NCBI GenBank assembly: GCA_002189035.1
Contig: CM007991.1
Coordinates: 1,302,001-1,366,000, forward strand
Source of the DNA: Utricularia gibba
Lineage: Eukaryota > Streptophyta > Magnoliopsida > Lamiales > Lentibulariaceae
Direction of reading: 5' to 3'
Length of the DNA stretch: 64,000 bases
The notes beneath the pieces were generated by a model that saw only the letters and a list, made by a program, of their open reading frames with translations, was not told the origin of the DNA and searched no databases. Of the stretch, positions 6,366 to 54,211 are shown one piece after another. The translations under genes were made by a program, and so were the position numbers. Each line of letters starts with the position of its first letter. Positions within the stretch are counted from its first letter, which is position 1.

Positions 6366-8029
6366 ATGGACAGAGAGTGGGGTTCGAAGCCTGGAAGCGG
6401 TGGCGCCGCCTCCGCTCAGAATGAAGCTATTGATCGGCGAGAGCGTCTCAGGAGGTTGGCGCTCGAGACGATCGATTTGGCTAAAGATCCCTATTTCATG
6501 CGTAATCATCTCGGGAGGTAAGGCTTGAGCTGATGCTATTTTGAGTTCAGGTTTTTTTTTTTTGTGAGTTTTTTTTTTCCTGTAATCAAGGGACAAGATA
6601 AATTGTATGCAGTTACGAGTGTAAGCTTTGTCTGACCTTGCACAACAATGAGGGTAACTACTTGGCGCATACACAAGGGAAACGTCACCAAACTAATTTG
6701 GCTAAGCGGGCGGCTCGTGAAGCCAAAGAAGCTCCTGCGCAGCCGCAGCCTCTCAAGCGAAAAGTTTCTCTCAAGAAATCTGGTAGATATTCAGTCTGGT
6801 TCATAATTAATTGTTCACTGGGGATGCTTTCTTGAACTTGATTGGTTGTGTGTGGTGACTTAGGGTTCTTGGAATTCTTAGTCTGTTTTTTGTCTTATTA
6901 TCCTACGCTTGCTTCTACTGCTCAATTAGGCTGTTCCTTACGTGCAATTATTCGTTCTTGCAGTTAAAATTGGTAGACCTGGGTATCGTGTGACCAAGCA
7001 ATTTGACCCTGATACAAAACAGAGGTCTTTGCTTTTCCAGGTTATTATCTGATGCTATGCTTGCATCTTATAGTAGTTTACTCTTGTGTATTTAGGTTTT
7101 TAAGTCTATCTTGCAGATAGAGTACCCAGAAATTGAAGATAATGCAAAGCCAAGGCATCGATTTATGTCTTCCTATGAGCAGGTGCCAGTCTAAAGGATT
7201 TCTAAATTGCAATGATTTACCCTGACCCTGACCACAATTGTGCGTGCCTTCTATGTTTTGATTGCAGAGAATTCAGCCTTTTGATAAGCGTTATCAGTTT
7301 CTACTGTTTGCTGCAGAGCCGTATGAAATTATTGCTTTTAAGGTAATTAGTCTTCCATTTTATTGATTTTCGGATTATGCTTAGTTAATGGCAGCACTTA
7401 ATTGCGTTGTTACTCTATCCAGGTTCCAAGCACAGAGATTGATAAATCAACCCCAAAGTTCTTTTCTCACTGGGATCCAGACTCCAAAATGTTCACGGTT
7501 AGCTACTTTGGTTCTTTCCAAAATTCTCAGAGGATTTTACACGGTTCATACTAAAGGCTGTCGGTGGATTTATCTAAACTTCAAGCATGATTGCTTGAGA
7601 TTTCTTCAGTTAGTTGCACTTTGAAAATGAAAATGATTATGAACGTTTTCCAACATTGCATATTCAGCTTAATCCCGTAACAAGAAGTGTGTTTTCTATG
7701 ATTATTGATACCAGTGCAAACTTTTAGATTTTTACCCGATGCCATGCTGACTGCATTGTTTAAGTTCTCTCTCTTTGTTTCTGTTTCAATATGCAGTTGC
7801 AGCTATACTTCAAGGCTAAGTCCCCAGAGATGAATAAACCTCAGCCTCCTCCATCAGCTGATGGAACTTCAGTTCCCGGTGCTGCGCCGCCCAGGCCGAT
7901 GCCACCTCCACCCCAAGTTCCACCCCCGCCCCACCGTCAGCACCACCGACAATGGCAAACTTCGGTGGAAACCCCCCACCACCCCCAATGTCAAATTTCG
8001 GCCCTGGCTCACAAATCTTCATGGGTTGA
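6366..8029 (+). CDS. SF3A2: Splicing factor 3A subunit 2 (SF3a66), with apparent frameshift in last exon
   Basis: This is a U2 snRNP component needed for prespliceosome assembly. The exons are 6366-6517, 6613-6782, 6964-7040, 7117-7182, 7268-7342, 7423-7497 and a last exon from 7797. The start MDREWGSKPGSGGAASAQNE is nearly identical to the Arabidopsis protein as I recall it. The matrin-type C2H2 zinc finger is visible as YECKLCLTLHNNEGNYLAHT, followed by KIGRPGYRV and FSHWDPDSKMF. The last exon enters the Pro-rich tail, and there the frame breaks at the C run 7929-7932. One more C would continue as PPSAPPTMANFGG and stop at 8027-8029 (282 residues). As written, the frame instead runs on to 8228 with a non-conserved tail (348 residues). 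I give the expected end. See the findings on homopolymer breaks. Confidence 0.9.
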
Positions 8030-8492
8030 ATTTTCATCTGCTCTTACTGTATCACCAGCGAACGTCGTTCGGCATTGCAATTCTGTTTTGAGTGAAAATT
8101 GTAACTCTAGGACCCAGTTTCAAGTATATTTTAAATTTAGTGTTTGGTCATGCAGCTTTTGTTCATTAATCAATGCGCAGGCCCTAATTACCAGTAAATG
8201 TGCACTTCATCCACAAGAGCAGGAATAGGTCATGGCTTCTTCTAGCCCTAACAAGCTAAACAATCAATCGACAAGCCACTGCTGGTTACAAATGGTTACG
8301 GAATAAGTTACGAAGATGAAGGGGTAAAAAAATGAGGTCCATCTCAGATCTACACCACTAACTTACAGGTAACAACTTCTTCATGCTGTGTATGGGTCTG
8401 TCCATTTCCTTCTTTCCTCACCACAACATATCTGTATATCCATATCAATTAACTGGGTGTCCATGGAAGCCTACTACCTGGCCTTCCCCTGG

Positions 8493-53039: not shown

Positions 53040-53382
53040 GGTGCTGCTGTTGCCTGTCATTTACTGGCTTTTGAACCAAATCATGTTGATTGGGTGCTAT
53101 CATCTTATTGATTTTGCATATTTCGTTTTGTATTGTTGGATTCGGGATTCTTATCTACATCTTTGTTGTCTGACCCCGATTTGGATCCTCATCTGTTTTT
53201 GAGATGGTTTCAGTTTATTAACACGTGATCTCACTATCTGAAACGAATAGTTCTTGTCCTAGCCCCATTTTCTAATGCGGATCACAAAACTTAACTAGTT
53301 TCTGAGACATGCTCCTGTTTCCACTGTTTCAAATCTGATATCTTACATGGGTGTTTCTGAGACATGTGCCACTTAGCGCCTA

Positions 53383-54211
53383 CTATATAGTTGCTAGTTG
53401 GACACATTTCTTCAAGGCTTCTAACAGGCTTGTCATAATCCTTGGTTCTCCGGGAGCTGGTTTCCCTTTTGAAGGCCCTTTTCGAATAGCTCGGAAGACT
53501 GGATTCGAATTTTCAGTGCCCGGAAACACCAAGCAATCTATGTATACAGGCACTTCGACCTGCCCATCGGATCCGATCACAGTGAAACCCAGTCTTGCTC
53601 CACCAAGAACCTTGTCAACCTGCATGTTAGAATCCCTAGCTTGTAGTAACTGGTTAAGCCGAGTTATCCTGCATTACATCTTTCTAGTGCATGTTCCCCC
53701 TAATCGACAAGCGAGGACAGACATTCAGCTGCATTTAGAATAAACTGTTGTTTACCTTGAGCGGTACTTCGAGCGGCAAGTTCGAGCCTTGGAATAAACT
53801 GTTGGCCCACTGCAAAAGCAAACACAACATTGCAGTCCAAAATTAGAGCTGCTACCAACATGAAGAATGGCTAAGCTTATCAAACTTGGGGAAAGAACAG
53901 GGGAGAAGAAGCTTGAGATCCTGCCTGAAAAAGCAAGATTTCAAATCTAGCCACATTGACGTTGGGGGCAGCTTCATGGTTCCTAAAGAAACTCCCTCCT
54001 CCGCCGGCGAAACTCTATCCGTCGACGATGCCTTCAGAACCACAGCAAAGCAATCGTGTCTACTGAAAACTTGAGAAGAACCAAGACTTGGGATAAGGTT
54101 TTTGCTGCCTAAGGACAGCTGCGGCAAGTGTTTGATGCGGCAAGATGGGGAAAACAGCCGGTGGGCGGTGACATTTTTCCCGATTGCAAGTTTCCCGGCC
54201 ACCGAAGCCAT
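53383..54211 (-). CDS. Conserved plastid protein of unknown function, one-base frame break in exon 1
   Basis: The exons are 53925-54211, 53756-53809 and 53383-53619. The N terminus MASVAGKLAIGKNVTAHRLF is a transit-peptide-like Ser/Lys stretch. It is followed by EEGVSLGTMKLPP, where the frame breaks at the G run 53964-53968 (plus strand). With one more base it reads NVNVARFEILLFQ and joins WANSLFQGSNLPLEVPLK and VDKVLGGARLGFTVIG, then VPVYIDCLVFPGTEN and GEPRIMTSLLEALKK. That gives 192 residues. I recognise the family as a widespread plant chloroplast protein without assigned function, and believe an Arabidopsis homologue (At2g36145) lies in the syntenic block. The exon 1 donor would be GC rather than GT. 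Confidence 0.8.

Follow-up and report, generated by a model that had tools for sequence, protein, structure and literature searches.

Frame breaks in conserved genes of a Utricularia gibba assembly as probable consensus errors at short G or C runs

The window analyzed here is a 64,000-nucleotide stretch of the Utricularia gibba genome (G000:C3:1302001-1366000), and its parent genome comprises 100.09 Mb in 516 contigs, the largest of which reach up to 8.5 Mb. A sequence-only reading of the window had named seven conserved genes that lose frame, and had proposed that one added G or C restores five of them. The seven genes were read in three frames and each break was then located. Four genes carry a clean break of the kind claimed: SF3A2, a CYP76-like P450, MDHAR and a gene for a DUF7148 protein. 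The break in the GRF gene is probable, and the claim did not hold for the PPR gene and the RCE1-like gene.

The upstream exons of the forward-strand SF3A2 gene match PF16835 (Pfam), and the break lies in the proline-rich tail at 7923..7932, where a CCCCC run (7923-7927) and a CCCC run (7929-7932) are separated by a single G. The tail is one C short; adding it gives PPPPPPSAPPTMANFGGNPPPPPMSNFGPGSQIFMG followed by a stop. The second exon of the CYP76-like P450, also on the forward strand, is one G short at the GGGG of 22247..22250, within EWG|FAELLRSP, and its Pfam score is 243 bits when restored versus 16 bits for the frame that precedes the break. An apparent additional short intron (GT..AG) is present within the same exon at 22512-22582. 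In the forward-strand MDHAR gene, the GGGG at 37759..37762 is one base short relative to an in-frame paralog on contig C414, which reads through the site, and when the DNA of the two copies is aligned, the window copy has a gap of one base at precisely this point. The DUF7148 gene spans 53383-54210 on the reverse strand and is one C short in a run of five on the coding strand (53964..53968, GGGGG in the forward letters). Adding the coding-strand C gives KLPPNVNVARFE and restores a match of 183 bits to PF23650, whereas there is no Pfam match in the frame as given. It had been described as a plastid gene; the protein is indeed of plastid type, but the gene is nuclear and is not plastid DNA.

The GRF gene on the forward strand is probably one G short at the GGGG of 32402..32405, immediately 5' of the WRC domain. 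The call is based on splice phase: a canonical GTAAGT donor sets the next exon in a frame that reads SGYWG, and that frame is connected to the WRC domain if the run at 32402-32405 gains a G, although an alternative exon start is possible. In the reverse-strand PPR gene (16480..18411), the last 28 or so codons are irregular and there is no clean run error. Within the tail (16480-16560) the family E-motif GCSWVELSDCVYAF is out of frame after a GG, and the frame then shifts once more and reaches an in-frame stop, so that a one-base run error was rejected there; the irregularity of the C terminus looks like either a real change or several errors. The frame change in the reverse-strand RCE1-like exons (43700..44000) can be explained by an intron, possibly of the GC-AG type, which would separate exons lying in different frames, and no break is established there. 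Longer runs do survive elsewhere in the window, as had been noted, for example C7 at 26129 and two G5 runs within 26667-26677.

The same defect was met in three gene families surveyed across many contigs, and it is therefore genome-wide rather than a peculiarity of one locus. The families (HSP70, P450 exon 2 and PPR) were not a random choice of genes. All 59 HSP70 candidates were scored, and three breaks (L006, L007 and L010) were found in 13.6 kb of matched exon. All 148 candidates for P450 exon 2 were likewise scored, and the match rows were used for a hand count of the 48 exons with identities of about 39% or above; intact exons were judged from those rows, and reading was confined to exons that were broken or partial. 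Thirty-eight of the 48 were uninterrupted, nine were broken by one base (the window copy counted among them, with L074-L079, L086 and L087 outside the window) and one was a true pseudogene, so that about one in five (9/47) of the others carries a one-base break. For the PPR genes the best 69 of 593 candidates were scored, a sample biased to intact genes, and among these five breaks (L043, L045, L047, L050 and L053) were found in 30 genes and 61 kb. The rate is thus about one break per 3.1 kb for P450, 4.5 kb for HSP70 and 12 kb for PPR, the last being an underestimate because its sample favors intact genes. Since the rate is genome-wide, four or five breaks are what would be expected in this gene-dense window, with the roughly 20 kb of coding sequence that we estimate for it. 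Open frames of at least 430 codons were found in only 27 of 72 UGT match rows. This figure would fit frequent breaks, but introns, fragments and pseudogenes confound it, and the UGTs were therefore left uncounted.

Altogether 20 clean breaks were read, four in the window and 16 elsewhere, the GRF gene being left out of this tally because its call rests on splice phase. In every one of them a single extra base restores the frame, the site is at G or C, and the family sequence is clean on both sides; the stretches read contain no further damage. Scoring of the eight HSP70 and PPR breaks gave a gain in homology score of 68-198 when a base is added and of at most 10 when one is removed; for the other breaks the restoration was read by eye from the frames and is unscored. 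About 18 of the 20 fall at G/C runs of at least three bases as written, often of only three to five, and the runs at two P450 sites (L074 and L078) are just two or three bases long. The one-sided chance that all 20 breaks share one direction is 1e-6. A/T runs of at least three bases are about 2.3 times as numerous as G/C runs of that length in the coding sequence of the PPR set (2111 vs 928), and the chance that all 20 breaks would fall at G/C among runs is about 5e-11. Both figures are rough, because the sites were placed by homology and two are at runs of two to three bases. Run-length spectra of the window and the surveyed loci reveal no gross shortage of G/C runs, and spectra alone cannot show under-calling. 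The sequence-only reading had favored homopolymer under-calling in the assembly over gene decay, and the uniform direction and base class of the clean breaks bear this out.

The most obvious biological explanation would be real and recent pseudogenization in the plant, with one deletion per gene. The genome is compact and duplicates do get lost in it: a decayed SF3A2 remnant is present on C414, and the P450 at C1:4092840 has genuinely lost about a dozen codons. The surveyed P450s and HSP70s are duplicated families that can include real pseudogenes. Against this, the 20 breaks agree in direction and base class, and the genes concerned show no larger damage; each has a single lesion in one direction, and the marks of pseudogenes (nonsense codons, indels in both directions, relaxed selection) were not seen. 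For two of the window genes no intact copy was found elsewhere in the genome. The search of the parent genome for an intact second copy of SF3A2 found none, although a missing match does not prove absence; the only other sequence is a remnant of one exon with 96% identity, present on C414 and also on C415, the duplicate of that contig. For the DUF7148 gene no other copy was found in the parent genome, and in this sense it is single. In the MDHAR gene, the sequence on either side of the break is under purifying selection: comparison of the window copy with the C414 paralog gives a dN/dS of 0.13 before the break and 0.15 after it, at a dS of about 0.46, which implies that the downstream part was constrained for most of the time since duplication. 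Pseudogenization is thus very unlikely to be the cause of the breaks.

The decayed SF3A2 copy lies at G000:C414:3152490-3152570 (L068) and on C415 (L069), and consists of one exon and a trace of the last exon. Judged by its gene content, the C414 block that holds both this remnant and the MDHAR paralog is evidently a duplicated segment of the window that is losing genes.

A second biological explanation is a lineage-specific mutational bias that deletes G or C from runs, for instance through oxidative damage to G, with many real deletions segregating or fixed. The G/C specificity of the breaks is what such a bias would produce, and oxidative mutagenesis has been proposed for bladderworts, which we counted in its favor. 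However, such a bias would have had to knock out about one in five P450 exons, and a spliceosome gene present in single copy, with no other sign of decay. It is also at odds with a direct comparison of redundant contigs. C414 and C415 represent one locus over 3.08 kb, and their sequences show five indels of one base each (four in G) and not a single substitution, whereas alleles are expected to differ mostly by substitutions. The missing base is in C415 at four of the sites and in C414 at one (GGGG vs GGGGG), and one of the C415 deficits, at locus position 1208, falls in what looks like coding sequence, whose frame continues unbroken in C414. We consider this mutational explanation exceedingly improbable. 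The wider proposition that the deletions are real and stem from an unusual bladderwort tendency to lose bases from G/C runs, with many genes either recently disabled or rescued after transcription, is given very little credence.

It could also be supposed that the frameshifts are real and are bypassed by ribosomal frameshifting or by transcript slippage at the G/C runs. Clean family sequence flanks every break, and the breaks are at homopolymer runs, both of which would suit such a bypass. The affected families, however, are unrelated and form no common gene class, the MDHAR paralog on C414 has no shift, and contigs of the same locus disagree with each other; a bypass has a virtually negligible chance of being correct.

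We therefore regard it as highly probable that the frame breaks in the window are long-read consensus errors, from PacBio continuous reads, in which G/C runs are written one base short. Some proportion of the short G or C runs would have lost one base in the consensus, and such errors would occur throughout the genome, with GC-rich coding sequence carrying roughly one every 3-5 kb. The plant DNA would then carry the longer run at each break site. A published Utricularia gibba assembly was built from 88x PacBio data with HGAP and Quiver, with an N50 of 3.4 Mb and 581 contigs (PMC5793159), and the present assembly is likely to be this one, made from PacBio continuous reads with HGAP plus Quiver. 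The two are alike in their multi-megabase contigs and small genome, and differ in contig number, 581 being reported versus 516 here. The present assembly also reads LLLLCCSALVEVG in COX1 on contig C515, with two adjacent cysteines, and two contiguous COX1 cysteines are reported for Utricularia and some Genlisea (PMC3141634).

Residual indels that break predicted proteins are described for uncorrected long-read assemblies in the work of Watson and Warr (2019) as cited in PMC9985148. The consensus indels found here break predicted proteins in the same manner, but, compared with the errors as described in that citation, all of our cases are deletions, all are at G/C and they are often in runs of three to five bases. 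The finding is very probably an ordinary sequencing or assembly error rather than a biological change, and is usual for long-read assemblies that lack short-read correction. Unless short reads or cDNA back it up, loss of an open reading frame in the U. gibba assembly should not be taken as gene decay. Otherwise a sizeable fraction of the genes would be miscalled as truncated or lost, an important point for a genome in which gene loss is a subject of study.

The psaA and psaB genes adjoin at C515:70174-74549, on the contig that holds mitochondrial cox1. There, psaB is open over 744 codons and psaA is broken in both directions. This psaA is most likely a real remnant of plastid DNA in a mitochondrial contig, and the use of psaA/psaB as an organelle control was dropped because the copy sits with cox1.

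Several small contigs of the assembly repeat parts of large ones with an identical or nearly identical sequence (C241/C304, C236/C505, C376/C413 and C415/C414). Not every duplicate pair carries errors: one pair (C414/C415) differs at runs, whereas in two others (C236/C505 and C376/C413) the contigs match perfectly over 1.8-1.9 kb. One HSP70 break is the same in contigs C241 and C304, and the error there is accordingly either systematic or shared. With such duplicate contigs present, gene counts from the assembly may be inflated.
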